Notes under the pieces: model-generated
The model's input: the letters and a program-made list of their open reading frames with translations, nothing else
What the model was told of the DNA's origin: nothing
Database searches by the model: none
Origin: Cocleimonas flava
GTDB taxonomy: Bacteria; Pseudomonadota; Gammaproteobacteria; Thiotrichales; Thiotrichaceae
DNA length: 64,000 nt
Direction: 5' to 3'
NCBI RefSeq assembly: GCF_004339015.1
Contig: NZ_SMFQ01000005.1
Coordinates: 558,001 to 622,000, forward strand
Shown: in pieces, positions 8,083 to 35,288 of the stretch
Layout of the letters: every line of letters starts with the position of its first letter
How positions within the stretch are numbered: the stretch's first letter is position 1
Program-made: the position numbers and the translations under genes

Positions 8083-8162
8083 AACCTAAAAGCAGGAAGC
8101 AAAACTTCTATTAATCATCTATAAGACATCCATAAACGACAAAAACAGTAGCAGGAAAAACT

Positions 8163-11086: not shown

Positions 11087-11166
11087 TAGCCTTTTAGCGC
11101 TTATTCCACGAAAATAATGATCGATAAAAATAGCCTGAAGCCTAGTGTTTCTCAAAGAGGTAGATT

Positions 11167-12381
11167 GTGAGTGCTACAAAATATGACTATGTAATTGTTG
11201 GCGGAGGTATTGTCGGTTTATCTACTGCCATGCAGTTACAGCAATCTTTTCCTGAGAAAAAAATACTCTTATTAGAAAAAGAAAACCAATTCGCCAAACA
11301 CCAAACCGGCCATAACAGCGGAGTTATTCATGCTGGCGTCTATTACGCTCCCGGAAGTCTGAAGGCGGATTTTTGCAAACGCGGCGTTGCAGCAACTCTG
11401 TCATTTTGTGCCGAACATGATATTAAAGTCGAACAATGCGGCAAGCTTTTAGTAGCGACCAATGAACTCGAATTAGAACGTATGGATTCATTGTTTGAAC
11501 GCTGCCTAGAGAATGGTCTTGATGTTGAGCTATTAACCCAAGCACAGCTGAAAGAACGCGAACCAAATATCATCGGCCTCGGTGCAATTTTTGCCAAGGA
11601 CACCGGCATTGTTAACTACCAACAGGTCAGCATGGCAATGGCCAAACAGTTTGAAAAACTGGGAGGTGAAGCGCGCTTAAATCATGAAGTCACTGATCTT
11701 AATGAATCTACAGACCATGTGACAGTGTTCGCAAACCATGATGGCAAGAGCGAGGAATTTAAAACAGATTTTTTAATCACTTGTTCGGGATTAATGGCCG
11801 ATAGAACCACCCGAATGCTAGGGATAAAAACGGACTTCCAGATCATCCCATTTCGTGGTGAATACTACCAACTACCCGCAAAATACAACAATATTGTTAA
11901 GCACCTGATTTACCCTATTCCTGATCCAGAATTACCTTTTTTAGGGGTACATCTTACACGCATGATTGATGGAACAGTCACTGTAGGACCCAATGCCGTA
12001 CAAGGCTGGAAGCGTGAAGGTTACGGAAAAATTAACATCAGCCTACACGATGTATTAGACATGATTCGGTTTAAAGGTTTTTGGAAAGTGCTACAAGCTA
12101 ACTATAAGACTGGCCTTGTTGAAACCTGGAACTCATGGTGGAAACCCGGCTATCTAAAGCTGGTTCAAAAGTATTGCCCCCAATTAACCGTCAACGATTT
12201 AACACCTTATCCCGCAGGGATTCGTGCCCAGGCTGTGATGAGTGATGGCACCTTAGTACATGATTTCTTGTTTGCAGAGAGCCCTAGAAGCTTACATGTA
12301 TGCAATGCGCCTTCACCCGCAGCGACATCTGCAATTCCGATTGGGGAATATATTATTAATAGACTGCCAGTCAGTGATTAA
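11167..12381 (+). CDS. lhgO: L-2-hydroxyglutarate oxidase/dehydrogenase
   Basis: The 404-residue flavoprotein begins with the FAD-binding motif YVIVGGGIVGLSTAMQL and contains the family segments HNSGVIHAGVYYAPGSLKA and PFRGEYYQLP, plus a C-terminal GIRAQAV stretch. The start is a GTG with GAGGT seven bases upstream. It oxidises L-2-hydroxyglutarate made by CsiD to 2-oxoglutarate and passes electrons to the quinone pool at the inner membrane face. A C-rich terminator-like repeat follows 40 bases after the stop. Confidence 0.94.
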   Translation: MSATKYDYVIVGGGIVGLSTAMQLQQSFPEKKILLLEKENQFAKHQTGHNSGVIHAGVYYAPGSLKADFCKRGVAATLSFCAEHDIKVEQCGKLLVATNELELERMDSLFERCLENGLDVELLTQAQLKEREPNIIGLGAIFAKDTGIVNYQQVSMAMAKQFEKLGGEARLNHEVTDLNESTDHVTVFANHDGKSEEFKTDFLITCSGLMADRTTRMLGIKTDFQIIPFRGEYYQLPAKYNNIVKHLIYPIPDPELPFLGVHLTRMIDGTVTVGPNAVQGWKREGYGKINISLHDVLDMIRFKGFWKVLQANYKTGLVETWNSWWKPGYLKLVQKYCPQLTVNDLTPYPAGIRAQAVMSDGTLVHDFLFAESPRSLHVCNAPSPAATSAIPIGEYIINRLPVSD

Positions 12382-12472: not shown

Positions 12473-13246
12473 CTACATATTCTTTGATAAAAATTGCACG
12501 ATAAAAACAATGCCTAAAAGTAATAGAACCGACCAGATGACCTTCTGAAAAGTATTTGCATTCAATTTTCCTGAGAACCAGGTGCCAACCAACGTAGCGA
12601 ATAAAGCCACCGGCATCATCACAAAGAAAAGCCCAATAACTCTCGGTGTAACAAGCCCAGCGCCAAAGTAGCCAAATGGAATGAAAATTCCACTTAACAA
12701 AAAGAAGCTATGAATCGTGCCCTTAAACTGTGCTGGCGACCATCCACGTAAGCTACCGTATATACCAAACACAATCCCACGAAACGCGTATGCTCCACCG
12801 AGCACACCTGCCAAAAGCCCGAAGAAATAACTCCAGCCATTTGCTTTCAACTGAATCTTTTTTGCCGGAGATAAAAACCAGATTGCCATGATAATAAGCA
12901 CGCAACCCAGAAGGCTTTTCACCAGCTCATTATCGGTAACTCCAAGTAGCAATATGCCAAATGGAAATCCCAATAGAGCCATACTGGCTGTTCGCTTTAA
13001 TGAGCCAAATTGAACGTGCGCCCTATCTTTCCACAACGCCACAAATGACATCAACGTGGAAATAAAAAGTATAAAGGGAACCGCTTCACTGATATCAATC
13101 ATCAGTGATAACAGTGGGACAGCAATGACGCCATCCCCAAAACCTATTGCGGCTCTGGTAAACAAAGCCAGCAATACGATTAAAGCAATCCAGAAAACAT
13201 TTGGGTCAGCGATAACGAGGTTAATTGAAGAGAGAATATAATCCAT
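12473..13246 (-). CDS. TSUP/TauE-SafE family membrane permease
   Basis: The 257-residue protein has about eight hydrophobic helices and the family's N-terminal motif FTRAAIGFGDGVIAVPLLSL, followed by a duplicated GLLAGVLGGAYAFRG half. TSUP proteins move sulfite, sulfoacetate or other small organic anions, mostly outward. It is the last gene of the minus-strand operon of SDH-like and hydratase genes, so it may carry the substrate or a product of that pathway. The cargo is not known. Confidence 0.85.
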   Translation of the reverse strand: MDYILSSINLVIADPNVFWIALIVLLALFTRAAIGFGDGVIAVPLLSLMIDISEAVPFILFISTLMSFVALWKDRAHVQFGSLKRTASMALLGFPFGILLLGVTDNELVKSLLGCVLIIMAIWFLSPAKKIQLKANGWSYFFGLLAGVLGGAYAFRGIVFGIYGSLRGWSPAQFKGTIHSFFLLSGIFIPFGYFGAGLVTPRVIGLFFVMMPVALFATLVGTWFSGKLNANTFQKVIWSVLLLLGIVFIVQFLSKNM

Positions 13247-13289
13247 ATTTTTATTAAAGCCCCGTAGGTAGCTAAACCATCAAACGCAT

Positions 13290-13625
13290 TTATTCGGCAT
13301 TGCTATTTTTGCCACCAATAGGACTAAAGTCCGCAGGGATTAAAATTTTATTCTCGATATGACTTACCAAAGGTCTCATCTGAACAGCGTAGTTTAGCCA
13401 TTCTTCGCTTGCTTGTAGTTCTGCTCTGCGGCTATAGCGATCATCCATTGAATCGTAACCCCACATGTGTACGATCTGGTTTAAAGGGCCAATATCCGTA
13501 TAAAAATAACCAACCATATTGCCCAATATACGGATTTGCACATCTTTACCTAATTCTTCGTAGAGTTTCAGGAAGGGTTTTACATTGCCATTTTTTAGTG
13601 TGTATATTCTTTCATCGATAAACAT
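13290..13625 (-). CDS. NIPSNAP-family small protein
   Basis: A 111-residue protein starting MFIDERIYTLKNGNVKPFLKLYE with the central IVHMWGYDSMDDRYSRRAEL segment is typical of the NIPSNAP (dimeric ferredoxin-like barrel) family. The ATG at 13625 is preferred to the in-frame TTG at 13640. NIPSNAP proteins often sit beside catabolic enzymes, but no general reaction is established. Here it lies between the hydratase beta subunit and the TSUP permease. Confidence 0.85.
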   Translation of the reverse strand: MFIDERIYTLKNGNVKPFLKLYEELGKDVQIRILGNMVGYFYTDIGPLNQIVHMWGYDSMDDRYSRRAELQASEEWLNYAVQMRPLVSHIENKILIPADFSPIGGKNSNAE

Positions 13626-13677
13626 TTCAGAGTCTCGCAAAGTATTAGTATTCAGGTAATTTAATTAGAGAAGTTAT

Positions 13678-14358
13678 TTAGATAAGCTCGTCGCTACGAT
13701 CGTCTGTTTCACCATAACGGCTCAGTGCAGGCTTCTTTAAACCTTCATAAAGCTTATCCAGTTTTTGATTGATCTTTTTGCCTTCCTGTTCGAACAAGCT
13801 ATTGCCTTTAAGATCACTATCTACGATAAAAGGACCGAAGTTTTCTACATCGAAAACCCACATCGCCTGTGCATTACCAAGCTCTTCGTACCACTCGACC
13901 TGTCTAACTTTTTTAATACCTCTACCCAATAAAGCGCCTGTTCCGTAACCTACGGTTGTCAAGTAAACAGCACCTGCCGGAACATAGAGTTCTTTATATT
14001 GTTCGCTGGTCATTCCGCCTTTGCCGATAATGATTTTTGCACCGGATTTCTTAAACCAATCAGTCATCCATTTGGCAAAACGGAAACTGGCTGTCGCCGT
14101 TACACCACCGACATTAAAGGTTCCGTCAGGCTCAATCGCTGCAGCAGGCGAACAATGGAAATTCACATTACTAAGCGCAGGTAAGTCTAGGGGAATATCA
14201 AAACCATCTTCTAAAACACGTTTGTAAACGCCTTCTCTGCCGGTATAAATAACGCCGTCCAGATAAACGATGGTGCCTATTTCCAGTTTTTCCAAATCTT
14301 CCTGTTGCACAGGAACCTGAAGCCTAACTTCTTTGAATTCTTTATTTGTATCAGCCAT
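13678..14358 (-). CDS. Class I fumarase/tartrate dehydratase-type hydratase, beta subunit
   Basis: The 226-residue chain has the C-terminal-domain signatures of two-subunit class I hydratases: YTGREGVYKR, NFHCSPAA and GKGGMT. Together with the alpha subunit it would add or remove water on an unsaturated dicarboxylate. The ATG at 14358 follows a perfect GGAGGA six bases upstream; the earlier ATG at 14373 overlaps that site and the alpha-subunit end, so it is rejected. The pair could act on fumarate, tartrate, mesaconate or a related acid; the SDH-like genes upstream favour the product of that dehydrogenase. Confidence 0.88.
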   Translation of the reverse strand: MADTNKEFKEVRLQVPVQQEDLEKLEIGTIVYLDGVIYTGREGVYKRVLEDGFDIPLDLPALSNVNFHCSPAAAIEPDGTFNVGGVTATASFRFAKWMTDWFKKSGAKIIIGKGGMTSEQYKELYVPAGAVYLTTVGYGTGALLGRGIKKVRQVEWYEELGNAQAMWVFDVENFGPFIVDSDLKGNSLFEQEGKKINQKLDKLYEGLKKPALSRYGETDDRSDELI

Positions 14359-14360
14359 GT

Positions 14361-15296
14361 CTATTCCTCCCATCCTGTTGTCTCACGTCTCATATAAGGC
14401 GTAAACCAGTTTGGATCTGTACGATAAGTTACTGTGCCATCGGCATGTATGCGAGCCGTTGCACGCCTTGAAGAAAGACAGAACATGTGCACGCTCATTG
14501 GCATACCACCGGTGTGGGTGTAACCCACTTCGATATGGCAATCCGCAACCATCGAGGCGCCGACAAAGCCCATCGCACCCATACCAATGTCATTACCCAT
14601 TTCTTTGAGTTCTTGTTCAAGTTTGGCAATCTCAGGATCAGGATTAGCCTCCCCCACAGTGCGCAAACAAGCTGCCTGCTTACCCAGAACCATCGTCGTA
14701 TCTTTTGAACCGCCAAGACCAATACCAACAACTGCCGGCTGACACGCTAAACCACGTTTACCAAATGAAACTAACGTATCGAGGAAAAATCGCTTAATGC
14801 CGTCAATACCATCACCAGGAAACAACATTCTGTAGTCTGTACCGAAGAGTCCACCCTTATGCACGGTGGTAATGTCGATCCAATCTACTCCTGGCTCAAA
14901 ACTCCAGTCGATTTCTGGTGAGTTAATACCCACGTTATTATTGTGATCTGTTCTCCATAGTGGATGAACGCGATTAGGACGTAACGGGATATCGTGCGTT
15001 GCTTGTGCAGTTGCTTCACGCAATGCTCTTTCTATTGCGATTGGACCGCCTTCAAATTTAGCTTCATTTCCAACTTTTACGTAATAACGAGGCAGGCCAG
15101 AATCGGCACACATCGGGCGACGATCTTCGGTAGCCGCATCCCAGTTTTCCATCATTGTCTTTAGAACAAATTTGGATAAACCATCCTCTTTTTGAACCAT
15201 GAACTCGATACCCTTTCGATAATCTTGTGGGATATCGATCGCCGCTTTACCCATAATCTGGTAAGCGGTATCTTTAATTACTTTATTAGAAATCAT
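14361..15296 (-). CDS. Class I fumarase/tartrate dehydratase-type hydratase, alpha subunit
   Basis: The 311-residue protein resembles TtdA/FumA N-domains. Three Cys candidates for the [4Fe-4S] cluster are present: in MCADSGLP, in LACQPAVVGIGLGGS and in VHMFCLSSRRA. Length and motifs fit the alpha chain of a heterodimeric hydratase. The ACQP segment replaces the usual ACPP, and the residues around the first Cys differ from fumarase (CADSGLPRYYVKVG), so the substrate may not be fumarate. The beta-subunit start lies two bases after this stop, and the SDH-like flavoprotein is the gene upstream. Confidence 0.9.
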   Translation of the reverse strand: MISNKVIKDTAYQIMGKAAIDIPQDYRKGIEFMVQKEDGLSKFVLKTMMENWDAATEDRRPMCADSGLPRYYVKVGNEAKFEGGPIAIERALREATAQATHDIPLRPNRVHPLWRTDHNNNVGINSPEIDWSFEPGVDWIDITTVHKGGLFGTDYRMLFPGDGIDGIKRFFLDTLVSFGKRGLACQPAVVGIGLGGSKDTTMVLGKQAACLRTVGEANPDPEIAKLEQELKEMGNDIGMGAMGFVGASMVADCHIEVGYTHTGGMPMSVHMFCLSSRRATARIHADGTVTYRTDPNWFTPYMRRETTGWEE

Positions 15297-15336
15297 CGTG
15301 TGGTCTCTCTTAATATTCTGTTATGTATTTGTATGC

Positions 15337-17088
15337 TTAGCGCTTAACTTCGGGAGCGGTTTCCGAGTAATCATCAATTAATGATTCACCTGGTTTGATA
15401 ATCGAAAAGTTAACCGGTGTATGAGTAACGCCGAAGTTGCCAGATTGATTCCGGGCAACGGTAAAGTAGGAGTCTTCCATCTTTCCCGGCTCGGGGAAAT
15501 CTTCACGACAATGTGCGCCTCGGGAGTTCTCGCGGGATAAGGCAGCAGCCGCTATTACTAGCGAGATTTCGATCAAATTATATAAATTCAACCAGTCATG
15601 CCAGGTTGGATTAAATACGGTATTTTCTGCACCGATACCATTTTCGAGCAATTCCTCACGTAATTCCTCAACTCTTGAAATACCTCTCTGGATACCTTCT
15701 GCGGTTCGCATAACGCCAACATCTTCCCACATAATATCCATGAGCTTTTCGCGTAGATCATTCACATTTACGCCACCTTGTGGTGATGTGAATGGCAGCA
15801 GTGCCCGATCGATTTCTGCTTTGATAATGTCTTCATCGGCTTCCTGAAGCTCATCAATATCGGCAACATACTCAGCCATCGCTTCACCAGAAACACCACC
15901 GTAAACGGTAGAGTTGGCAACGCCGTTTCCGCCCAGTCTATTTGCTCCGTGAATTCCGCCAGCATCTTCACCAGCTACGAACAAACCTGGTAATTCTGTT
16001 TTAGTATCGGTATCACAGATCAAACCACCCATGAAATAATGTGCCGTTGGTACGACCTCTACCAATCCTCCTGCCAGATCAAAGCCACAGTCAGCACAAC
16101 GCTTTACCATGCCTTTGAATTTTTTCTTAACATCCTCAACACCAAGATGACTCATGGCGATATAAACACCGCCATTTGGCGTGGTGTTTCCTTTTCGCAT
16201 TTCGGCATAAATACCACGACTTACGATGTCTCTAGTGGCACGTTCACCACGTTCATCGTAGTCAAACATGAAGCGTTCTTTATTGCCATTTAGCAAATGC
16301 CCGCCAGCACCACGCAACCCTTCTTCCAGCACTGTGCCTGTCATGCGGGTATCTTTACCCGCCAACAATCCGGTCGGGTGAAATTGCACCATTTCCATGT
16401 CACGCAGCGGCAAACCAAGGCGTAAAGCCATCGCTAAGCCATCCATGCTCTTCTCACCCGATGGTGTGTAATAGCGATACATGGTTGGACCACCACCGGT
16501 TGCCAGCAATACAGCTTTTGCTCGAACCAGACGCATTGAACCGTCGCGCATATTGACCATCAGCACACCAGCCAGCGCATCACCTTTTTTATTCGGTATT
16601 AACGCCAGTGCTCTATGCTCTTCAAGACGATCTATCGGCAGCGCGAGTACTTGTTCCATCAGACGGCTGATAATCTCTATTCCGGTAAGGTCGCCTTTAT
16701 GCACTGTGCGATCCGCTGTTTGTCCTGCAAATGCTTTATGATGCAATGAGCCATCGTCTTCTCTATCGAAGAAGCAGCCTATCTCATTTTCAAGCTCTTG
16801 CACTCGGGTTACTGCAGTCTCACAAAGTTTCCATGCCAAATCCTGATCAGGCAACCATTTACCGCCAGCAATGGTGTCCATGAAATGGCGTTCAACAGAA
16901 TCATCATCACTCATTGCAACGTTGTAGCCGCCCTGTACCATTCGAGTACAACCGCATTTACCCATCAAGCCTTTCACAGCGATGCTGATTTTTAGATCTG
17001 GATTAGCTTTATAGGCGTGTAATGCTGCTAATAAGCCAGCTCCACCAGAGCCAATAATTAAAATATCGGTATCGTTTCTTTCTATCAT
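15337..17088 (-). CDS. Succinate dehydrogenase/fumarate reductase-like flavoprotein subunit
   Basis: The 583-residue protein has the FAD motif ILIIGSGGAGLLAALHAY and all dicarboxylate-binding landmarks of SdhA/FrdA: QFHPTGL, TGTVLEEGLRG, the Arg in RATRDIVSRG, TAHYFMGG and GANRLGGNG. At the place of the His that carries FAD covalently in SdhA (SHT-QGG) it has Cys47 (GCTRMVQGG), so covalent histidyl-FAD is not expected. The ATG at 17088 follows the preceding stop by two bases; an upstream TTG is rejected. It should oxidise succinate or a substituted succinate for the hydratase encoded next. Confidence 0.9.
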   Translation of the reverse strand: MIERNDTDILIIGSGGAGLLAALHAYKANPDLKISIAVKGLMGKCGCTRMVQGGYNVAMSDDDSVERHFMDTIAGGKWLPDQDLAWKLCETAVTRVQELENEIGCFFDREDDGSLHHKAFAGQTADRTVHKGDLTGIEIISRLMEQVLALPIDRLEEHRALALIPNKKGDALAGVLMVNMRDGSMRLVRAKAVLLATGGGPTMYRYYTPSGEKSMDGLAMALRLGLPLRDMEMVQFHPTGLLAGKDTRMTGTVLEEGLRGAGGHLLNGNKERFMFDYDERGERATRDIVSRGIYAEMRKGNTTPNGGVYIAMSHLGVEDVKKKFKGMVKRCADCGFDLAGGLVEVVPTAHYFMGGLICDTDTKTELPGLFVAGEDAGGIHGANRLGGNGVANSTVYGGVSGEAMAEYVADIDELQEADEDIIKAEIDRALLPFTSPQGGVNVNDLREKLMDIMWEDVGVMRTAEGIQRGISRVEELREELLENGIGAENTVFNPTWHDWLNLYNLIEISLVIAAAALSRENSRGAHCREDFPEPGKMEDSYFTVARNQSGNFGVTHTPVNFSIIKPGESLIDDYSETAPEVKR

Positions 17089-17090
17089 GA

Positions 17091-17432
17091 TCAAATCGCT
17101 CTCAATAAGAAGGCTAAAGCCACAAAAAATGCTATTGCAACTGCCACTGCGGCAAATGTTTTCTGTCCGGGTTTCCAGGGCAAGAATTCAAGTGCAAGTA
17201 ATCTCAGGCCGCCAAATAAATGCACCGCCAATAAAAACACTAATCCGAACTCAGCAAACTTAACGATTGGCTGCTCCGCCCAGTGCAACATGCTATCTAG
17301 CGATTCAGGCTCATTCAGTGCCAGACTAAGAATGTAAAAATGCGCAGGAAGAAATAACGCAAGCGCTATACCCGAAACGCGATGAAGAATATAGGCGTAC
17401 CAGAGGGGTTGATTTCTATGTGTTTTAATCAT
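17091..17432 (-). CDS. SDH-like membrane anchor subunit (second of two)
   Basis: A 113-residue protein with three predicted membrane helices. The HRVSGIALALF segment and the later HLFGGLRLLALE segment carry His residues typical of haem and quinone sites in SdhC/SdhD-type cytochrome b anchors. It overlaps the upstream anchor gene by four bases (ATGA) and is followed by the flavoprotein gene. The role is electron transfer from the iron-sulfur subunit to quinone in the inner membrane. Confidence 0.82.
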   Translation of the reverse strand: MIKTHRNQPLWYAYILHRVSGIALALFLPAHFYILSLALNEPESLDSMLHWAEQPIVKFAEFGLVFLLAVHLFGGLRLLALEFLPWKPGQKTFAAVAVAIAFFVALAFLLRAI

Positions 17433-17761
17433 GACATCACCACCGCGTAAACTGCTTTACTACCAAGACCCAATAACAAAATAACAATCGCCGTAGTAAT
17501 CCAGTTAAGGCGCGCGCCTGTTACCCCCAGCCATTCATAAATGACCACTCTTAAACCTATCGCCGCATGGATTGATAAGGCCACGACAAATAAGCCGTAG
17601 ATCAAGCCCCAGAAAAAACTACCTTGAGTGCGACCCAGTATTTCACCGGAAGATAGACCGCCCTGAATAGCGTAAATCATGACGCCCAGATGAAGTAACA
17701 CCAATGGCGCCATCAGCATCGCAGTCAAACGTTGTGCAATATATAATTTGATACTGAGCAC
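17429..17761 (-). CDS. SDH-like membrane anchor subunit (first of two)
   Basis: A 110-residue protein with three predicted helices. AQRLTAMLMAPLVLLHLG and HAAIGLRVVIYEW are typical of SdhC/FrdC-type anchors. It starts with GTG, with GGGGAG about eight bases upstream at the end of the iron-sulfur gene. Both anchors in this operon look SdhC-like, which suggests a duplicated anchor rather than a classic SdhC/SdhD pair. Confidence 0.82.
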   Translation of the reverse strand: MLSIKLYIAQRLTAMLMAPLVLLHLGVMIYAIQGGLSSGEILGRTQGSFFWGLIYGLFVVALSIHAAIGLRVVIYEWLGVTGARLNWITTAIVILLLGLGSKAVYAVVMS

Positions 17762-17763
17762 TA

Positions 17764-18492
17764 TTACATCTCCCCTTTTAGTGTTGCTATTGCTGCCGCT
17801 TTTTTCAGGCCAGCAATAGAACGAGTAGGATTGAGGGTATTAGGACAATAGGTAGTACAACCTTGTTGGGAATGACAAGATTGACAGCCACCGTCTCCAG
17901 TAACAGCCTTAAGACGCTCTATTCTGCCACCATCTCGAACATCATTGACTAAGGTCCAGGCTCTGTTAAGCGCTGCAGGGCCTAAATAACTAGCATCATT
18001 TTCTACAACATCACAGGATGCGTAACACACGCCACAGTTAATGCATTCAATACCTGCATTGGCTTCGCGACGGGATTTTTCCTTGGGTGAGATAATCTGG
18101 ACTGAATCGTCACGCGTTTTAGTTGGAACAAAATGGCCTTTCGCCTTGGTCCATTTTTCAAAAAACTCATTCAAGTCACAGGCAAGGTCTTTAATGATCG
18201 GCATGTTTCTTAAGGGTTCGATAGTGATGGTATCGCCATCCATAACCTTTGAAACATGCGTACGACAGGTCCAGCGCGGTTTGCCGTTAACTGTCATCGC
18301 ACAGGAGCCACACATACCCACACGACATGCAAAACGGTAGGATAAATCAGGCTCTAGATTACGCTGAATCCAGGTCACCACATCTAATACTGTTTGGCTT
18401 TCTTTGGCGGGTACTTCGTATTCTTTCAGAGCGCTATTCGAGTTATCACCACGACTAAGCAATACCTTTATCGTTTTACCTTTATTTGCCAC
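17764..18492 (-). CDS. SDH/fumarate reductase-like iron-sulfur subunit
   Basis: The 242-residue protein has the [2Fe-2S] motif CRVGMCGSCAM with a further Cys in RWTCRTHV, a ferredoxin-type motif CINCGVCYASCDVV, and a last cluster region GCQSCHSQQGCTTYCPNT. This is the order seen in SdhB/FrdB. The start is GTG, supported by GGAGAG upstream. It is the first gene of the eight-gene operon, and an 18-bp perfect palindrome lies 20 bases upstream. Confidence 0.92.
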   Translation of the reverse strand: MANKGKTIKVLLSRGDNSNSALKEYEVPAKESQTVLDVVTWIQRNLEPDLSYRFACRVGMCGSCAMTVNGKPRWTCRTHVSKVMDGDTITIEPLRNMPIIKDLACDLNEFFEKWTKAKGHFVPTKTRDDSVQIISPKEKSRREANAGIECINCGVCYASCDVVENDASYLGPAALNRAWTLVNDVRDGGRIERLKAVTGDGGCQSCHSQQGCTTYCPNTLNPTRSIAGLKKAAAIATLKGEM

Positions 18493-18752: not shown

Positions 18753-19673
18753 TCAGCTTTTTGTGGTTTGAGAAGGGTCTAACATGGCTTTGGTGACCCC
18801 AGACTCCTCAACAATCTGAATAAGTTTTTCCCACAAAAGCTCTATAAGCAAATGCTTGCTGGTATCTCGACGATAAAGCACGCCCAGCACGCGTTTAAAA
18901 GACGTATCCTCAAGTGGAATGATATTCAGATGTTCATGTTCCGGTTTTGAACAGCAATTCAACGGAACGATAGATACACCAAGGTTATTCATAACCATTG
19001 CCGCAGTGGCCTCTAAAGTATCGAGCTCCATGGTTTCATGAACATGAATATTATTTTCGATTAACCAATGATCAATATCCTTTCCTACCCAGGCTTTTCT
19101 CGCATAGCGGATAAACGATTGAGTCCGAAGGATTTCCATGGGATCAGTCATCTCAACTTCTTTGGAGGTTAAAACCACAAAGGGTTCTTCGGTAAACGGA
19201 CGCCAGATCAAATGCTCATAGATAGTGGGTGGCTCTGTCATTACTGCAACATCAAGAAAGCCTCTATCGACTTGTGCATATAAATCGTCAGATAAGCCGG
19301 GATAGATGCGGATGTGCAAATTATCGTGATCATCCTGTAAGGTTTTAATCGCCCTTGGCATTATCCCAGTGGTAGTGGTTGGAACCGTTCCCACTGTGAG
19401 GTTTTCTAACGTATCAAGCTCACCTTCTAAGGATGGTTTTAATTCTTCGTAATGTTTGATCAGCTTCAACGCCTTGGGGATTAAGGCATATCCGGCAGGA
19501 TTCAATACCGGAGGACGCTTGGTACGATCAAATAGAGGCATATCAAGCTCGTCCTCTAATGCCTTCATTTGTTGGCTCACGGCGGCAGGTGTTAAGTAAA
19601 CAGCTTCGGCTGCTTTAGCAAAAGTTCCAAGTTCAGCAATTGCTATAAGGGTTTTAAAACGACGAACACCCAT
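18753..19673 (-). CDS. LysR-family transcriptional regulator
   Basis: A 306-residue protein with a classic LysR N-terminal helix-turn-helix (LIAIAELGTFAKAAEAVYLTPAAVSQQMKALEDEL) and a substrate-binding domain (VGTVPTTTTGIMPRAI, SIVPLN). The ATG at 19673 is chosen over the TTG one codon upstream. It lies just upstream of the SDH-like operon in the same orientation, so it is the likely activator of that operon. It could also be linked to the TctCBA/ThDP operon on its other side. Confidence 0.9.
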   Translation of the reverse strand: MGVRRFKTLIAIAELGTFAKAAEAVYLTPAAVSQQMKALEDELDMPLFDRTKRPPVLNPAGYALIPKALKLIKHYEELKPSLEGELDTLENLTVGTVPTTTTGIMPRAIKTLQDDHDNLHIRIYPGLSDDLYAQVDRGFLDVAVMTEPPTIYEHLIWRPFTEEPFVVLTSKEVEMTDPMEILRTQSFIRYARKAWVGKDIDHWLIENNIHVHETMELDTLEATAAMVMNNLGVSIVPLNCCSKPEHEHLNIIPLEDTSFKRVLGVLYRRDTSKHLLIELLWEKLIQIVEESGVTKAMLDPSQTTKS

Positions 19674-19761
19674 CAATGTATACCAGAATTATAGTTAAGA
19701 GGACCTTTATCATAGGACATAAATAACCACTTTATATCAATTAAATATTAATCAATATATA

Positions 19762-19795: not shown

Positions 19796-21421
19796 TTAGT
19801 GACCACTTCCAGAAGGCGCTGGTAATCCTTCAATTCGCACATTAACACAGGCGGGCAGTCCGCTATCAATCGCTCGTTTTAACGCTGCATCCAGGTCAAA
19901 TGGGTCTGTCACATATTCACCGTGACCACCTAAACCTTCTACAGCTAAGTCGTAACGTGTTTCATCAAGCTCACAGCCAATCAGGCGATCTTCACCATAT
20001 TCCCTGAGCTGAAGTTGCACCTCAGCATTCCATTTGGCATCGTGTCCTATCACCGCTACCAGTGGAAGCTTATTGCGCACGGCTGTTTCAAATTCGCTGA
20101 AATGAAAACCCGCAGTACCATCGCCCATCAATATAAAAACAGTAGAATCAGGATGACTCGCTTTCGCGCCAATCGCATAGCAAATACCGCCACCAATAGC
20201 ACCGGAAATGCCATTAATGATTCGCTTAGGAGCGGACAAGAATGCCTGTGACCACTGACCAAATTCACCACCATCACACACTAATATTGCATTTTCTATG
20301 CCTGACATTGCTCGTTGTACAGAGGTACACAAAGAGGCAGGATGAATTAAATCAGATACGATATCGTCAGCATCTTCCCCACGCTCTGTAATGACATTTG
20401 TTACCCTATCCATCCATCTTTGTCTGTCAGATGTCGGCGCGACCTGACAAGCACTCAGTGATTCAGCAAGACTTTTAACACTAGCAATTTCAGTCAGAAC
20501 AATTCGCTCACCAAGAGCCTGTCGCGCGCGCTCAAGCATTTGCTTATCAGGATCAACAACCAAGACCCTGCAATCTGCGCCGAATGAATTAGCATTAGCA
20601 AAACTCAAGGTAAAATCAACAGACTTACCCAAAATCACTACAACGTCTGATTCAAGCAATACATTACTAAAATCGCCCAAGGAAGGATCCTTAAGTCCGC
20701 GCGGACTTTCCATACTTACAACGGGCACCGATAAGGCCGATGTCAGTTTAGAATGTAATTCGCCGATTCTTGTTTCAGTTAATGCAGGACCTGTAATAAT
20801 CAGTGGACGTTGTGCGTTTTGTAACTCATTTTTAATCTGCTCAACAACTGCATCTGATGATGCTTCTCTATCAGGAGAGTAATCGCTCACACCGCTTAAC
20901 TTCGATGTATCCACTTCCTGTTCAAGAAGATCCTGAGGCAGAGCTAAATGTACAGGACCCGGACGACCTGAACGCGCTGTTTTAATCAAAGCACTAAGAT
21001 CATCTGGAATCGTTTCAACAGAAACAGAACGTTTAGATAGCTTGGTTAACGGAGTAGCAATTGCTACCTGATCAAGCTCTTGAAAGGCACCCATACCATC
21101 TTTGGAAATAGGTGAATCACCACTGATCAATATCACCGAGCTCTCAGCACAAGTCGCCGAATACAATGGCGCCAGGCCATTGGCAAAACCTGGGGCTGCT
21201 GGCAATAGAGCCACCCCTATTTCATCATTCAATTGTGACCAGGCATCTGCCATAAAAACTGCAGCAGCTTCGTGCCTTACATGTATTAAACGAATGCCTA
21301 CATCAATGATTGCATCAAAAATAGGCATGATTTGATTGCCAGATAAAGTAAAGATTGTCTTTACTCCGGCCTCAGCTAAACCTTCAGCAACAAGATTTGC
21401 TCCACGTTTACTTTTCGTCAT
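19796..21421 (-). CDS. Thiamine-diphosphate-dependent enzyme (acetolactate synthase/benzoylformate decarboxylase-like)
   Basis: The 541-residue protein has the three domains of the family. The catalytic Glu is in HVRHEAAAVFMA (about residue 51), and the ThDP/Mg motif begins GDGTAGFHFSEFE and closes with HDAKWN, where most relatives have NN. It would decarboxylate or ligate a 2-keto acid. It is the last gene of the tctC-tctB-tctA transcript, starting 55 bases after tctA, so its substrate probably derives from the acid imported by that carrier. It lacks features that would let me call sulfoacetaldehyde acetyltransferase or a specific decarboxylase. Confidence 0.85.
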   Translation of the reverse strand: MTKSKRGANLVAEGLAEAGVKTIFTLSGNQIMPIFDAIIDVGIRLIHVRHEAAAVFMADAWSQLNDEIGVALLPAAPGFANGLAPLYSATCAESSVILISGDSPISKDGMGAFQELDQVAIATPLTKLSKRSVSVETIPDDLSALIKTARSGRPGPVHLALPQDLLEQEVDTSKLSGVSDYSPDREASSDAVVEQIKNELQNAQRPLIITGPALTETRIGELHSKLTSALSVPVVSMESPRGLKDPSLGDFSNVLLESDVVVILGKSVDFTLSFANANSFGADCRVLVVDPDKQMLERARQALGERIVLTEIASVKSLAESLSACQVAPTSDRQRWMDRVTNVITERGEDADDIVSDLIHPASLCTSVQRAMSGIENAILVCDGGEFGQWSQAFLSAPKRIINGISGAIGGGICYAIGAKASHPDSTVFILMGDGTAGFHFSEFETAVRNKLPLVAVIGHDAKWNAEVQLQLREYGEDRLIGCELDETRYDLAVEGLGGHGEYVTDPFDLDAALKRAIDSGLPACVNVRIEGLPAPSGSGH

Positions 21422-21476: not shown

Positions 21477-22988
21477 TTATTCTTGATTTCCGTGCTCTAC
21501 CGCTTCAGCCTTTTTCTTGCCTAAACCGGAACGGATAATTGCAACTATGGTTATGATCGTGAGTGTCCAGAAGAACCAGGTAATTGGGCCTCTAACGAGT
21601 ATTTCCCCAGAACCACCAGACATTAGCATCGACTGCCTAAAGTTATCTTCCAGTAGCGGCCCAAGGATAAAAGCAATAAGAAACGGTGCTGCAGGTATGC
21701 CTTTACACAGCATGACATATCCCAACCAACCCATCGCAAACATTACACCTACATCGAAGATATTGTTATTAACCGCGTAACAACCGTATACACAAAGCAC
21801 CATTACGGCGGGGAATAAAATACCTCGTGGAATATCAGCAACATACCTGAATGCACGAATAGCTACCGAACCTATTAAAAACAAAAAGACCGAACTGATG
21901 ATCAAGCCCATGAACAATCCATAGATGATATCCGGACTATTCAAAAACATCATGGGTCCAGGCTGTAAGTTATGCACCATGAAAGCACCAATGATTACCG
22001 CAGTGATGACATCCCCTGGAATACCCAGTGCTAGAAGCGGTATCAACGTAGCCCCTGCTACACCATTGTTTCCAGATTCAGATGCGGCAACGCCTTCGAT
22101 TTCACCTTTACCAAAGTTTTCTTTGTTCGGTGATTTTCGTCGAGCCTCGCTATACGAGAGAAACGCTGAAGGGGCTGCTCCAATACCCGGGATACTCCCG
22201 AGGAAAACACCGATAAAGCTACCTCTTACGATAGATTTAAAACAACGTTTATATTCTGCAAATGTCACCCATTCTTTACCGAGACTTTGCGTTTCACCTT
22301 CATTCGATTTGGGATTCCAAACCATTGCTAATATTTCAGGTATTGCAAATAAACCAATCAACACAGCGATGAAGTTCAATCCACCCATTAGGTTTGGATC
22401 ATTCAGTGTAAATCGATTAGTGCCGTAGACTAGATCGAGCCCTATGGTGGCGAGTATCAACCCAAACAAAGCGCTGACAATACCTTTCAGCAAACTATCA
22501 CCTGAAACACCCGCAATAATTGTTAGCGAGAATAAAATCAGGGTAAAAAACTCTGGTGGTCCGAACTTTAATGCAAACGCAGCTAACCAACCCGCACACA
22601 GTATTAGCGCCAGATTAGAGATTAGATCTGCAGTACAAGAAGCCCATAACGCCATCCCCAAAGCTTTGCCCGCTTGCCCATTTTTAACCATCGGATGGCC
22701 ATCAAGAATGGTCGCACTAGAGGCTGGCGTACCCGGTGTTTTAATAAGAATAGCCGGAATACTACCGCCAAAAATCCCCCCTTTATAAACACCCAATAAC
22801 AATAAAATACCTGTAATTGGCTGCATTGCAAAAGTAAAAGGAAGCGTTAATGCCACTGCCATTGTTGCCGACAAACCTGGAATAGCACCCGCTATAACAC
22901 CAATTAAAACGCCGCCTGCCAACGCAAACACACTCTCAAAATTCGCAACTAACTCAAAACCCGCTGCAAGGTTTTCTAACAATGTCAT
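21477..22988 (-). CDS. tctA: Tripartite tricarboxylate transporter large membrane subunit TctA
   Basis: The 503-residue protein has about twelve helices and family signatures GAIPGLSATMAVAL near the N-terminus and IPGIGAAPSAFLSY plus ALGIPGDVITAVIIGAFM in the middle. It is the channel-forming subunit of a sodium- or proton-driven TTT uptake system. It overlaps tctB by four bases (ATGA). Substrate is a carboxylate; the neighbouring ThDP enzyme and SDH-like module suggest a di- or tricarboxylic acid. Confidence 0.93.
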   Translation of the reverse strand: MTLLENLAAGFELVANFESVFALAGGVLIGVIAGAIPGLSATMAVALTLPFTFAMQPITGILLLLGVYKGGIFGGSIPAILIKTPGTPASSATILDGHPMVKNGQAGKALGMALWASCTADLISNLALILCAGWLAAFALKFGPPEFFTLILFSLTIIAGVSGDSLLKGIVSALFGLILATIGLDLVYGTNRFTLNDPNLMGGLNFIAVLIGLFAIPEILAMVWNPKSNEGETQSLGKEWVTFAEYKRCFKSIVRGSFIGVFLGSIPGIGAAPSAFLSYSEARRKSPNKENFGKGEIEGVAASESGNNGVAGATLIPLLALGIPGDVITAVIIGAFMVHNLQPGPMMFLNSPDIIYGLFMGLIISSVFLFLIGSVAIRAFRYVADIPRGILFPAVMVLCVYGCYAVNNNIFDVGVMFAMGWLGYVMLCKGIPAAPFLIAFILGPLLEDNFRQSMLMSGGSGEILVRGPITWFFWTLTIITIVAIIRSGLGKKKAEAVEHGNQE

Positions 22989-23464
22989 GGCAACCTCAAA
23001 AACTCACCTTGAGGAATAGCCATTCCTGCAACATGAGCAAAAAACATATATAAAACGAGCGGAATAACTACCGCTGAAATGAGGGCTGTTCGTGGATGAG
23101 ATGTTTTGATCAATACCGCCAAAGCGACAAACGAAATCATTGACGTCCACACAAGCCCTAATACAGGAATTGCAGCAACATAAGCAGCCATCAAGACAGC
23201 TAAGAATGCAATTCGCTTATAACATCCTTTAGTCGGCAATAGTTCTGCAACACTATCCTTAACGGCACTTCTTCCCGAGATCATCAGAGCAATACCGGTG
23301 ATTCCCAAAAGAACGCTTAAAACCTCCGGCCAAAATACGGGAGATAACACTATATTCGTCACATTAGAGGGCGCAGTAACACCATAAGGAATTGCTACAA
23401 AAAGCAGAAATAAAGATAGAATTAATGAGGCCAAACCCGTACTAAAATAAGAGTTGTTTAACAT
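22985..23464 (-). CDS. tctB: Tripartite tricarboxylate transporter small membrane subunit TctB
   Basis: A 159-residue protein with four hydrophobic helices, the size and pattern of TctB subunits, directly between tctC and tctA. It pairs with TctA in the inner membrane. A stem-loop between tctC and this gene may lower its expression relative to the binding protein. Confidence 0.85.
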   Translation of the reverse strand: MLNNSYFSTGLASLILSLFLLFVAIPYGVTAPSNVTNIVLSPVFWPEVLSVLLGITGIALMISGRSAVKDSVAELLPTKGCYKRIAFLAVLMAAYVAAIPVLGLVWTSMISFVALAVLIKTSHPRTALISAVVIPLVLYMFFAHVAGMAIPQGEFLRLP

Positions 23465-23540: not shown

Positions 23541-24551
23541 TTAGCCCTCTACCCTCATGCCTAGCTCATCGACTAATGCTTTGAACTGATTGTACTGTTT
23601 ATTAATAAACTCCTTTGATTCTTCAGGACTCATTAAACGGATAACTGAACCGCGCGCTTCCATCTTCTCTTTAAATTCTTTATTAGAAGTGGCTGTTCCT
23701 AACCATTTACCCCAGGATGCTGCTATATCATCAGGCAAGTCATCAGGACCAGCGACACCCGTCCAACCAACTAACTGCTCTAAATTTGGCTTACCAAGAT
23801 CTTTTGAAGTAGGCGCATCAAAACCTGCTACAGGCTCTGCTGTTGTTACTAACAGAGGCTTAAGCTGCTTATTCTTTACAAAACTAGCTAAGGCTGATGA
23901 ATTAGTACAAACAAATGTAGCAGTACCGGTTAAAACAGCCGTTGCAGCACCTCCGCCACCTTTCATCGGAAGATGTGTTGCCTGTTTCACTGGATTTTCC
24001 AAACCAAACTCTTTGAGCACCATCGCCGCTGCTAATTGCAACAAACTACCTACACCAGAAGAGCTATAACTTACGCTGCCTGGCTTAGCCTTTGCTCTAG
24101 CTACCAAATCTTCCATCGAATTTATATCGCTATCCGCTTTTACAGCACAGGCAACAGGGTTTATTTCATAAATTCCAACAAATCGAAAATCTTCCAATTT
24201 ATAAGGAAGCGTGGCTTTTATCGCAGGGTTTACTGTGTGAGTACCTACTCGAGCAAACAACATGGTATATCCGTCTGCTTTAGCATTCTGTACCGCTACT
24301 GAACCAATCGCCCCACCAGCGCCAGCCTTATTAACCATTACCAATGGCTTTCCAACTTCTTTACTCAATGGTTCAGAAATAGTTCGCGCTGAGATATCAG
24401 TCGCTCCACCAGGGCCGTATGGAATTATCATACTGATGGGGCGAGAGGGATAATCGGCCGCAAAAGCACTATTGCTTAAAAAAACGACACTCATCGCTGC
24501 TGAAATTAATAGTTTCGATTTGTTCATTTTTATTTTTTTTAGTAAATACAT
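23541..24551 (-). CDS. tctC: TctC/Bug-family periplasmic solute-binding protein
   Basis: The 336-residue protein has a signal peptide (cleavage after SAFA) and Bug-family motifs: YPSRPISMIIPYGPGGATD at the mature N-terminus, and VNKAGAGGAIGS. The ATG at 24551 is supported by AGGAG five bases upstream, giving a slightly long N-region; the inner ATG at 24527 has no ribosome site. It binds a carboxylate and delivers it to TctAB. First gene of tctCBA and the ThDP enzyme. Confidence 0.92.
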   Translation of the reverse strand: MYLLKKIKMNKSKLLISAAMSVVFLSNSAFAADYPSRPISMIIPYGPGGATDISARTISEPLSKEVGKPLVMVNKAGAGGAIGSVAVQNAKADGYTMLFARVGTHTVNPAIKATLPYKLEDFRFVGIYEINPVACAVKADSDINSMEDLVARAKAKPGSVSYSSSGVGSLLQLAAAMVLKEFGLENPVKQATHLPMKGGGGAATAVLTGTATFVCTNSSALASFVKNKQLKPLLVTTAEPVAGFDAPTSKDLGKPNLEQLVGWTGVAGPDDLPDDIAASWGKWLGTATSNKEFKEKMEARGSVIRLMSPEESKEFINKQYNQFKALVDELGMRVEG

Positions 24552-24902: not shown

Positions 24903-25781
24903 CTAATCGTAGCTTTGTAATATTTTTTCGATTTCCTTTTGCAAACGATCAACTATCCTGCTTTTAGAGCAATCCTTACGAGTAAGAATACCTAATTCGC
25001 GAGCAATGTAAGCAGTCCCTAATGGTATTTTTCTGAGTTTCGCAAAAATCGGATCTGGAGCACAAAGATTAGGGACAATAGCTACTCCAAGATTGTGCGT
25101 AACCATGTATGTCAGCGTTTCTATCGAATCAATCATCATAACTCCATGCATTTGAAGTTTATTCTGTGATAACCACTGCTCGATAACTACGCCTGCAGCA
25201 GTATGTCTATTTTGTTGAATGAATGGATTCTCACTTAGTATCTTTGATGGATCATTACCTTTAACTTCTGGTGAGGTTAATAACACTAACTCCTCTTCAA
25301 CAATAGCCTGCCAGTTTAAATTTTCATCAAATCGTTCGGGCTTACTGATAAGTGCCGCATCTATAGTTCCATAACTAATTTGATCAAATAAGTTATATGT
25401 CGTACCAGGTACAATTCGAACAAATAAATCGGGATAATTCTTCATTAAACCCTTTACAGAACGCGGTATAAGCTCTCGAATAGTTGATGGAATTGCACCA
25501 AGCGTTAATTCACCAATAAACTGAGCATCACCCACCAATCCCTCAAATATTGTTTCATAATCGTGAATAACTGATTTAGCTTTAGGGATTAATGCCAAGC
25601 CAAGCTGATTCAATCTTGGACTTTTTTCGTTACGATCGAACAATCTTACATCATAGATTTCTTCAAGGCGTTTCATCTGTTGACCGACAGCGGCATGCGA
25701 GATACAGACATTTTCAGCGGCAGCACTAAAACTTCCATATTCAGATATAGCCACAAGGGTTTTGAGTAATTTAATCGACAT
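24903..25781 (-). CDS. LysR-family transcriptional regulator
   Basis: The 292-residue protein has the LysR helix-turn-helix (LVAISEYGSFSAAAENVCISHAAVGQQMKRLEEIYDVRLF) and a ligand domain related to the LysR at 18753. The ATG at 25781 has TGAGGT upstream. It is divergent from comD, and a 21-bp perfect dyad lies between the two. It also lies upstream of tctC in the same orientation. It is the probable regulator of one or both units. Confidence 0.9.
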   Translation of the reverse strand: MSIKLLKTLVAISEYGSFSAAAENVCISHAAVGQQMKRLEEIYDVRLFDRNEKSPRLNQLGLALIPKAKSVIHDYETIFEGLVGDAQFIGELTLGAIPSTIRELIPRSVKGLMKNYPDLFVRIVPGTTYNLFDQISYGTIDAALISKPERFDENLNWQAIVEEELVLLTSPEVKGNDPSKILSENPFIQQNRHTAAGVVIEQWLSQNKLQMHGVMMIDSIETLTYMVTHNLGVAIVPNLCAPDPIFAKLRKIPLGTAYIARELGILTRKDCSKSRIVDRLQKEIEKILQSYD

Positions 25782-25947: not shown

Positions 25948-26451
25948 ATGTCCATAGACGTAAACGAAAGAATTGTCAGTGATTTTGTAAAGAACAAAAT
26001 CGAATTAGTGACAACAGTGCCCTGTAAACAATTGGCCACAACAATTGAAAAAATAGACGAAAATAAAGACATATACCATATTCCCTCAAACAAAGAAGAC
26101 GAAGGGATGGGCATTTGCGCTGGTGCATTTATGGGCGGTAAACGTTCTGCAATTATTATGCAAAACACCGCTATTGGCGTCACTATAAACACCTTGGCCA
26201 CATTGACACAATATTATCGTATACCACTTCCGATGTTGATTAGTTACCGCGGTGAACTAGGTGAACCAGTTGCTTGCCAGGTTGAGATGGCCCTTCATAC
26301 AAAAGCATTGTTGAAACAAATGAATATACCCACATACCACTTTCATAACGAGAGCGATGTGGAAGAGTTAGATAAAATTTTACAGTATACATTTATGTGC
26401 AATAAACCCGTTGCGATATTAACTGACGCGACTTTTTGGAAGGGGTACTAA
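25948..26451 (+). CDS. comD: Sulfopyruvate/phosphonopyruvate decarboxylase-type ThDP enzyme, alpha subunit
   Basis: The 167-residue protein matches ComD-type alpha chains: a possible catalytic Glu in NKEDEGMGICAGAFMGGKRSAIIMQNT and LISYRGELGEP. AAGGAG lies upstream. With the beta subunit it would decarboxylate a 3-substituted pyruvate, for example sulfopyruvate to sulfoacetaldehyde or phosphonopyruvate to phosphonoacetaldehyde. No sulfolactate dehydrogenase, Xsc or phosphonate gene is next to it, so the substrate stays open. The TSUP permease at 12.5 kb is a weak hint towards sulfonates. Confidence 0.82.
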   Translation: MSIDVNERIVSDFVKNKIELVTTVPCKQLATTIEKIDENKDIYHIPSNKEDEGMGICAGAFMGGKRSAIIMQNTAIGVTINTLATLTQYYRIPLPMLISYRGELGEPVACQVEMALHTKALLKQMNIPTYHFHNESDVEELDKILQYTFMCNKPVAILTDATFWKGY

Positions 26452-26453
26452 TC

Positions 26454-27017
26454 ATGATTCGTTCAGAAATAATAAAAAGCTTAATTCCAGTAATTTCAGA
26501 TCATTTTGTCGTATGCAATATTGGTTTACCCAGTCAAGAACTACATATGATGGATGACCAGTCGACTAACTTTTATATGTTAGGAACTATGGGATTATCT
26601 TCATCGATTGGCTTAGGTGTTGCCTTAGCACAAAAACAAACAGTTATATCAATTGATGGCGATGGCTCGGTGTTAACTAACTTAGGTACGTTGCCGACTA
26701 TTGCGAACAACGTAACTGATAACTTCATATTGCTGATAATTGATAACGGGAGCTACGGTTCAACGGGTGATCAGCCGACATATGCCGGCCAAAAAACGTC
26801 ATTAACAGCAGTAGCTTTAGCCTGTGGTTGCGAGAATGTTATTGAATGCCAAGCAGAAGAAGCCGCTGAAGTTATGCAGAAAGCCATCGATAGTAAAAAA
26901 ATGACAATAATCGTGTGTAAAAGCGAATCAGGAAATATTCCTGTGCCCGTTATTACTATGGACCCTGTCATAATTCGTCATCGCTTTATGACTGAATTAA
27001 CGAAGCGGAATACTTAA
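26454..27017 (+). CDS. comE: Sulfopyruvate/phosphonopyruvate decarboxylase-type ThDP enzyme, beta subunit
   Basis: The 187-residue chain carries the ThDP/Mg motif starting GDGSVLTNLGTL and closing with DNGSYGSTGDQPT, as in ComE. The ATG at 26454 is preferred because GGAAGGGG lies eight bases upstream and the comD stop two bases before; the in-frame TTG at 26436 is inside comD. Alpha and beta chains are both needed to build the active site. A strong intrinsic terminator follows. Confidence 0.84.
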   Translation: MIRSEIIKSLIPVISDHFVVCNIGLPSQELHMMDDQSTNFYMLGTMGLSSSIGLGVALAQKQTVISIDGDGSVLTNLGTLPTIANNVTDNFILLIIDNGSYGSTGDQPTYAGQKTSLTAVALACGCENVIECQAEEAAEVMQKAIDSKKMTIIVCKSESGNIPVPVITMDPVIIRHRFMTELTKRNT

Positions 27018-28476: not shown

Positions 28477-28503
28477 TAGAATCATCTCTTAATATCATAA
28501 TGA

Positions 28504-28661: not shown

Positions 28662-28679
28662 TAAACATCAAGGTTTATT

Positions 28680-30146: not shown

Positions 30147-30151
30147 AAATT

Positions 30152-31465: not shown

Positions 31466-31513
31466 ACCTATAAAAACAACTAAGCTCATTTTACGTTATA
31501 GAGGTAAATACTT

Positions 31514-32569: not shown

Positions 32570-32582
32570 GGAGATAATAATC

Positions 32583-33734: not shown

Positions 33735-33758
33735 CTGTAAATCACAGGTCGCTACTTT

Positions 33759-35255: not shown

Positions 35256-35288
35256 AACATTGAATAAATATTTACTCAGGAACAACAA

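Follow-up and report, generated by a model that had tools for sequence, protein, structure and literature searches.

Gene organization of the locus

Analysis of a 64,000-nucleotide stretch of the Cocleimonas flava genome (contig NZ_SMFQ01000005.1, positions 558,001 to 622,000; hereafter the window) identified a group of genes which encode a succinate dehydrogenase (SDH)-like complex, a class I hydratase of two subunits (HYa and HYb), a NIPSNAP-family protein and a TSUP permease, and which are probably dedicated to organosulfonate degradation. The eight open reading frames (ORFs) lie on the minus strand at 12473-18492 and are separated by at most 43 nt or overlap by 4 to 13 nt, in agreement with the tight packing pointed out in a preliminary description of the sequence. 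Family models recognized the Fe-S subunit, the flavoprotein, the two membrane subunits and both hydratase subunits, confirming the four-subunit complex and the two-subunit hydratase of that description.

These genes are the downstream part of a co-directional run of 13 genes that extends to 24551 and begins with tctCBA: TctC-TctB-TctA-ThDP-LysR-SdhB-SdhD-SdhC-SdhA-HYa-HYb-NIPSNAP-TSUP, where ThDP stands for a thiamine diphosphate-dependent enzyme. LysR and SdhB are spaced by 260 nt. The comDE genes, with both subunits above the curated cut-offs, are located 7.5 kb from the SDH-like operon (Table 1). The earlier ThDP and ComDE calls were backed by models, and that of TctCBA by homologues annotated as such.

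Table 1. Coordinates in the window of the 13-gene run and the adjacent comDE region
Product	Position	Strand	Basis
TSUP (TauE/SafE-type) permease, candidate sulfite exporter	12473..13246	-	Pfam TauE 87 bits, cut-off 32.6
NIPSNAP-family protein	13290..13640	-	Pfam NIPSNAP 94 bits
Class I hydro-lyase beta subunit HYb	13678..14373	-	Pfam Fumerase_C 90.6 bits; TIGR00723 113.5, under cut-off 145
Class I hydro-lyase alpha subunit HYa, candidate 3-sulfoacrylate hydratase	14361..15296	-	Pfam Fumerase; TIGR00722 212 bits, cut-off 100.7
SdhA-like flavoprotein, candidate 3-sulfopropionate dehydrogenase subunit	15337..17094	-	best model PRK06263 TfrA 498 bits, under cut-off 718; TIGR01812 432 bits, under cut-off 567
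SdhC-like cytochrome b subunit	17091..17432	-	TIGR02970 64 bits, cut-off 52.3
SdhD-like membrane anchor	17429..17761	-	Pfam Sdh_cyt 36 bits; TIGR02968 35.2 bits, under cut-off 41.8
SdhB-like Fe-S subunit	17764..18492	-	TIGR00384 191 bits, cut-off 88
LysR regulator	18753..19676	-	Pfam HTH_1 and LysR_substrate
ThDP enzyme, 2-hydroxyacyl-CoA lyase / oxalyl-CoA decarboxylase / acetolactate synthase group	19796..21421	-	below all curated cut-offs (in brackets): NF058623 260 bits (600), PRK09259 208 (557), best overall PRK05858 316 (587); best solved relative 2-hydroxyacyl-CoA lyase 7pt1
TctA-like permease, tripartite tricarboxylate transporter	21477..22988	-	homologues annotated so in L154, L158
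TctB-like subunit	22985..23464	-	homologue flanked by TctC and TctA in many loci
TctC-like solute-binding protein	23541..24551	-	homologue context; no match to NCBIfam models
Second LysR, divergent from comDE	24903..25781	-	same sequence cluster as LysR at 18753
ComD, sulfopyruvate decarboxylase alpha	25948..26451	+	TIGR03845 155.7 bits, cut-off 147.95
ComE, sulfopyruvate decarboxylase beta	26436..27017	+	TIGR03846 231.3 bits, cut-off 221.5

The operon is distinct from the tricarboxylic acid cycle set

A dedicated second complex and hydratase, parallel to the tricarboxylic acid (TCA) cycle, had been proposed in the preliminary description, and the genome of C. flava supports it: canonical SdhA and SdhB are encoded at G000:C2:742501-743315 and a 505-aa FumA-type ORF at G000:C2:259493, both besides the window operon. 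The eight genes are a paralogous set and not the set of the TCA cycle. The SdhA-like protein shares 31% identity with the canonical SdhA of its own genome, and 31-36% when E. coli SdhA and FrdA are also considered.

A search of GTDB species genomes with the SdhA-like protein yielded at least 587 relatives, the best 80 of which were kept as loci for comparison; the nearest relative listed belongs to an uncultured Cocleimonas and shares 96% identity. The window protein and those of the 80 loci (n = 81) were aligned with MAFFT and are described in E. coli SdhA numbering; invariance counts over the best 80 of at least 587 relatives partly reflect their closeness. As in complex II (SDH and fumarate reductase), four subunits are encoded in one operon, and residues H242, E255, R258, R286, H354 and R399 are conserved throughout (81/81). 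The family differs from complex II by the replacement of Thr254 by Glu in 81/81 proteins and of Glu260 by Ala in 80/81, by an insertion of about six residues before Glu254, with the motif TRMTG in 68 of the 81, and by a Cys at the position of the FAD-binding His45. This Cys was present in all 73 sites that could be located; the script did not locate the remaining 8 of the 81, and the six of these that were inspected begin with a sequence unlike the family, the gene starts having been wrongly extended. The MAFFT alignment puts the neighbouring Gly in the His45 column, and a second alignment shows the Cys. In E. coli complex II, Thr254 is presumably a substrate-binding residue and His45 the site of covalent FAD attachment. 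Haloarchaeal homologues of 48-49% identity keep both the Cys and the Glu; one has Glu at position 260.

The hydratase shares with the two-subunit class I fumarases and L-tartrate dehydratases (7xky, TtdAB) the cluster cysteine motifs, CxD[ST]G and the beta-subunit motif KGGM. All three cysteine motifs were found in 67 of 69 HYa sequences, and the other two each deviate at one motif. It differs from these enzymes in that HYb scores below the TIGR00723 cut-off and in that the Gln of CQDTG, which we take to be a substrate residue from work on the Leishmania fumarase, is lost in 69/69 HYa sequences (Gly in 59, Ala in 10); this Gln is present in 4/4 reference enzymes. The SdhA-like family and the hydratase thus both carry changes at their predicted substrate sites. 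Loci L015 (1377) and L038 (2520) encode, about 5-7 kb upstream of the operon, a further class I hydratase pair that is distantly related to that of the window (26-31% identity).

An ordinary second SDH/fumarase set, serving as TCA-cycle isozymes or as a fumarate reductase, would have the same overall architecture, but it would not account for the replacement of Thr254 and of the covalent-FAD His, the presence of the canonical copies or the 31% identity to the organism's own SdhA, and we regard it as very improbable. Function as TCA-cycle isozymes was rejected because canonical copies are present and active-site residues are changed.

Neighbours of the operon in other genomes

Neighbouring genes were counted in the 41 of the 80 loci with at least 19.5 kb of sequence (long loci) and in 40 control stretches, TSUP being counted within about 10 kb. 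The control stretches were picked by hand at round coordinates within the Roseovarius nubinhibens family alone, whereas the 80 loci are spread over several classes. A number of the neighbour queries were derived from the target loci and recover themselves, and p-values are therefore indicative. Genes were located by a homology-weighted gene call and tblastn, and antisense-looking ORFs (e.g. cluster c13 over HYb) were disregarded.

The gene content of the cluster was found to be conserved: SdhB was present in 40/41 long loci and each hydratase subunit in 39/41, compared with 0/40 controls. TSUP (TauE/SafE) occurred in 26/41 long loci and sulfite oxidase in 7/41 (the L082 copy being a fragment), neither in any of the 40 controls. 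Queries taken from outside the loci gave matches to a plasmid TSUP in 30/80 loci and to a plasmid molybdoenzyme (sulfite oxidase) in 6/80, each 0/40 in controls. Other frequent neighbours were LysR (26/41 vs 3/40), TctC (20/41 vs 1/40), TctA (16/41 vs 3/40) and the ThDP enzyme (10/41 vs 0/40). No significant enrichment was found for NIPSNAP (5/41 vs 1/40; 7/80 loci overall and 5/14 plasmid loci), CoA transferase (6/41 vs 1/40) or an enolase of the mandelate racemase (MR) type (3/41 vs 1/40; 5/80 loci overall).

In five loci (L031, L046, L053, L071 and L089) a class III CoA transferase gene separates the two hydratase genes; the L053 copy was hit by models for succinate-glutarate, oxalate and mesaconate CoA-transferases but reached the cut-off of none. 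The ThDP and CoA-transferase families match those of an oxalyl-CoA decarboxylase / 2-hydroxyacyl-CoA lyase system with a formyl-CoA-type transferase, but both proteins score below the curated cut-offs, and L071 and L089 are the only loci in which the two were seen together. A sulfolactyl-CoA lyase step, in which the same two enzymes would yield sulfoacetaldehyde and formyl-CoA, was dropped on this distribution. The CuyA-like copy in L023 has D-cysteate sulfo-lyase as its best model, below cut-off. The available upstream flank of L011, a 96%-identical Cocleimonas operon, contained no comDE, and a pyruvate-kinase-like ORF was recognized there by eye.

Plasmid-borne copies of the operon

Matches were obtained in 18 plasmid records, 14 of which were examined (all but H4, H9, H13 and H15). 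Twelve of these stretches are annotated, with incomplete gene tables, so that the counts are lower bounds: TSUP or sulfite exporter in at least 10, sulfate exporter in at least 7, sulfite oxidase or a similar molybdoenzyme in at least 3, a UxaA pair (SuyAB-like) in at least 4, an Ldh-family (ComC-like) enzyme in at least 5 and TctCBA in at least 6. Of the plasmids with a SuyAB-like pair next to the operon, two are from Methylobacterium and two are haloarchaeal. In M. radiotolerans and M. oryzae the plasmid-borne operon comes with the ThDP enzyme and is followed by TSUP, the UxaA pair, a dicarboxylate symporter, a D-2-hydroxyacid dehydrogenase (2HADH) and an Ldh-family enzyme; the M. nodulans plasmid lacks the UxaA pair but encodes SoxC together with a molybdoenzyme, TSUP and a sulfate exporter.

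On the Natribaculum and Haloarcula plasmids an SdhA-like protein, with Cys and Glu kept, and SdhB are encoded next to a UxaA pair, TSUP and a lyase of the ArgH family. Neither stretch has an annotated class I hydratase, whose place the ArgH-superfamily protein could take. The Ldh-family enzyme of the Haloarcula plasmid has L-sulfolactate dehydrogenase as its best model, below cut-off.

Downstream of the operon, the NT-26 plasmid encodes a sulfolactaldehyde-reductase-like protein, which scores 324 bits against a cut-off of 348, and a succinate-semialdehyde dehydrogenase (SSADH) above the TIGR01780 cut-off, as would be needed to feed 3-sulfopropionate (3-SP) from its alcohol or aldehyde. In Pseudomonas sp. 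MPC6 a methylmalonate-semialdehyde dehydrogenase gene (MMSDH; 695 bits, cut-off 448.5) overlaps the end of the HYb gene by one base; TSUP, the exporter YeiH and sulfite oxidase are encoded nearby, and a SuyAB match is absent from the stretch. An MMSDH homologue (60%) is also found in Cupriavidus sp. P-10, where it is encoded on the strand opposite to SdhB and 1.4 kb upstream of it. The Sulfitobacter S190 plasmid stretch encodes neither exporter, its nearest neighbours being TctCBA, LysR, a FAD-binding oxidoreductase and aconitase X. Near the operon of Sulfitobacter L154 a gene is annotated as mandelate racemase family.

Homologues of the sulfolactate biomineralization genes (SlcC/ComC, SuyAB and TauE of Chromohalobacter, Paracoccus pantotrophus and P. 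wurundjeri) flank the operon on several plasmids, but the passages of PMC12421959 on that system do not assign to it an SDH-like complex or a hydratase.

Possible routes for sulfolactate in operon-bearing genomes

Twenty-six operon-bearing genomes, that of C. flava and those of 25 of the 80 loci, hand-chosen and mostly isolates, were searched for enzymes that release sulfite from sulfolactate or its products. Xsc was found in 19/26, and a SuyA and SuyB pair in four of the other seven, giving a total of 23/26; the genomes of L030, L049 and L082 contained neither among those checked. The SuyB proteins of the four Xsc-less genomes are 73-87% identical to the copy beside the M. radiotolerans operon. 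SuyAB were identified from family, size, pairing and homologues described in the relevant passages of PMC12421959, the NCBIfam SuyB models giving no match. ComE exceeded its cut-off in 7/26 genomes. In C. flava, Xsc scored well above cut-off and is encoded outside the window operon; no GD_AH_C (SuyB-type) protein was found in that genome.

The possibility that the ThDP enzyme replaces Xsc was also considered. Six of 11 ThDP-bearing genomes have Xsc (the set comprised C. flava, L011, L018, L030, L048, L049, L054, L061, L071, L087 and L089, with L058 and L083 left out), and these genomes are too few and too related to judge.

Relation to published sulfonate degraders

According to the passage of PMC11489063 that cites a Konstanz thesis, R. 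nubinhibens ISM degrades homotaurine via 3-sulfopropionate, sulfoacrylate and sulfolactate. This strain carries the operon (L031, one of the five with a CoA transferase between the hydratase genes), and only two SdhB-type proteins were found in it at E 1e-10, the canonical one and the operon copy; the operon is its only non-canonical complex II. The intermediates reported for R. nubinhibens are those proposed here, and the genes are not named in that passage. Apart from the thesis, bacterial 3-SP degradation is described there as unreported, and the corresponding passage of PMC12890257 calls the route in Bilophila unclear. No genes for 3-SP oxidation are assigned in the passages concerned of PMC11489063, PMC12890257 and PMC12421959.

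In Paracoccus wurundjeri, a 'fumarate and tartrate metabolism' cluster and a TauE homologue rise on sulfofucose, the cluster being given in the pertinent passage of PMC12421959 as 11 loci with TauE seventh. The P. onubensis operon (L050) consists of SdhB, D, C, A, HYa, HYb, TSUP, LysR and three ABC transporter genes, TSUP again being the seventh of eleven. From this match in order, the P. wurundjeri cluster is probably the same operon. No 3-SP intermediate is expected in P. wurundjeri, hence induction there would be due to sulfolactate, sulfite or another shared signal.

Proposed pathway and alternatives

Taken together, these results indicate that the operon is likely dedicated to an organosulfonate. 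It would most likely act as a sulfonate mirror of the succinate-fumarate-malate sequence. 3-SP is succinate with one carboxylate replaced by a sulfonate; in the same way sulfoacrylate corresponds to fumarate and sulfolactate to malate. A C3 sulfonate, and 3-SP as the best candidate, is favoured because the operon has TauE/SafE, sulfite oxidase, sulfate exporter, SuyAB-, ComC/SlcC- and CuyA-like and SsuA-family neighbours, together with ComDE. We give the specific route from 3-SP to sulfolactate, with its substrate deduced from gene content, a probability of a little under 0.6.

In this route, TctCBA would take up the acid, the SdhABCD-like complex would oxidize 3-SP to 3-sulfoacrylate with electrons passing to quinone, and HYab would add water to give 3-sulfolactate, both reactions and their direction being predicted. 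If sulfolactate is the product of the hydratase, then its substrate is 3-sulfoacrylate and that of the dehydrogenase 3-SP, unless a carboxyl group is lost at a later step. In C. flava, sulfolactate would be oxidized to sulfopyruvate by a putative dehydrogenase, ComDE would convert the latter to sulfoacetaldehyde, and from this Xsc would form acetyl phosphate with release of sulfite; elsewhere, ComC/SlcC and SuyAB would lead to pyruvate and sulfite. Export of the sulfite would fall to TSUP, and some relatives additionally encode sulfite oxidase and a YeiH sulfate exporter. The 2HADH at 8163-9110 is only a candidate for the sulfolactate dehydrogenase step.

A number of observations weigh against this pathway. 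Without the covalent-FAD His the flavin potential is expected to be lower, as in fumarate reductase mutants, which would not favour desaturation; the Glu at position 254 puts an acid where the negative sulfonate must bind, unless an Arg/Lys of the inserted loop pairs with it. The ThDP enzyme, the CoA transferase and NIPSNAP have no role assigned in it. Twelve of the 41 long loci lack any of five sulfur-type neighbours, and no enrichment was seen for YeiH (2/41 vs 0/40), an SsuA-type binding protein (3/41 vs 0/40), a GabD-like aldehyde dehydrogenase (3/41 vs 4/40), 2HADH (1/41 vs 1/40) or CuyA-like proteins (0/41; 2/80 loci). Ldh-family and 2HADH matches were obtained in three of the 80 loci each, at 25-37% identity; comDE was not found in the available flanks of the 80 loci, and SuyAB were found near the operon in none of them, but on plasmid loci only. 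The sulfolactate dehydrogenase model NF040650 gave no match in the C. flava genome. Among 150 genomes of the R. nubinhibens family, Xsc was present in 15/18 with HYb and 80/132 without, a weak co-occurrence (two-sided p 0.07, one-sided 0.048). Finally, a tartrate-dehydrogenase family protein, better suited to a dicarboxylate, is encoded downstream in three gammaproteobacterial loci (L017, over cut-off; L020 and L024, by cluster).

This last neighbour would fit a sulfosuccinate route, in which the complex forms sulfofumarate, the hydratase sulfomalate, and oxidation with beta-decarboxylation sulfopyruvate, joining ComDE or ComC/SlcC. Such a route keeps two carboxylates for enzymes and a TctCBA transporter of the dicarboxylate type and shares the sulfur neighbours, but it leaves aside the 3-SP, sulfoacrylate and sulfolactate sequence reported for an operon-bearing strain, and the MMSDH and SSADH/reductase neighbours suit 3-SP better; we consider it unlikely. 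The preliminary description had hinted at a sulfonated succinate, which was close as to the sulfonate direction, although in 3-SP, the best candidate, the sulfonate replaces one carboxylate. Its other first guesses, methylsuccinate and tartrate, are not borne out, the sulfonate-type neighbours pointing elsewhere, so that the earlier interpretation as a whole is partly supported. Oxidation of a sulfur-free C4/C5 dicarboxylate, e.g. methylsuccinate via mesaconate to citramalate, agrees with the enzyme families, with TctCBA and with the CoA transferase between the hydratase genes in five loci. It leaves unexplained the TSUP, sulfite oxidase, YeiH, SuyAB-like and ComDE neighbours, as well as the sulfosugar induction if the P. 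wurundjeri cluster is the same, and seems a poor candidate. The methylsuccinate/mesaconate/citramalate version, raised by the CoA transferase, was dropped for these sulfur genes and because no citramalyl-CoA lyase was recognized among the neighbours by eye, no systematic search having been made.

The MMSDH gene abutting HYb in MPC6, where TSUP, YeiH and sulfite oxidase are near and SuyAB was not matched, its homologue near SdhB in Cupriavidus sp. P-10, and the 3/26 genomes with neither Xsc nor the SuyAB pair would be compatible with direct desulfonation: HYab would hydrate the sulfonate-bearing carbon of 3-sulfoacrylate, the alpha-hydroxysulfonate would break down to malonate semialdehyde and sulfite, and MMSDH would form acetyl-CoA. 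MMSDH was not enriched (4/80 loci vs 4/40 controls, all at 24-30% identity), the SuyAB and ComDE neighbours imply sulfolactate, and the thesis, as cited, names sulfolactate; for the operon in general this scheme is improbable. There is an outside chance that, in some members of the family, cleavage of the C-S bond is carried out by the hydratase alone, giving sulfite and malonate semialdehyde by simple hydration, without ThDP, radical or pyridoxal phosphate chemistry.

Other genes in the window

An enolase-superfamily (MR-type) enzyme and the 2HADH are encoded at 6931-9110, the latter 3.4 kb beyond TSUP; both are possible sulfolactate-processing enzymes. GlaH (glutarate dioxygenase) and LhgO (L-2-hydroxyglutarate oxidase), both above cut-offs, occupy 10121-12381 and represent a separate glutarate-to-succinate route adjoining the operon. 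Three further features were recognized by eye: a xylose/sugar catabolic cluster at 27448-37373 with a LacI-type regulator, xylulokinase-like and xylose isomerase-like ORFs and an ABC transporter; a second TctCBA-like tripartite tricarboxylate transporter adjoining a short-chain dehydrogenase/reductase gene at 39405-42491; and a 1690-aa ORF of many similar internal repeats at 58913-63985.

Significance

Known kinds of enzymes, in altered form, appear to be used here in a seemingly unassigned pathway. Sources of 3-SP are homotaurine and, through Enterococcus gilvus, sulfoquinovose and 2,3-dihydroxypropanesulfonate. If the proposal is correct, it would provide specific genes in alpha-, beta- and gammaproteobacteria, with a haloarchaeal relative, closing the 3-SP route and delivering electrons straight to the quinone pool. 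It may also explain the Krebs-cycle-linked cluster in the sulfosugar proteome, as presented in the relevant part of PMC12421959, and some genes now annotated as sdh or fumarate hydratase would be sulfonate genes.

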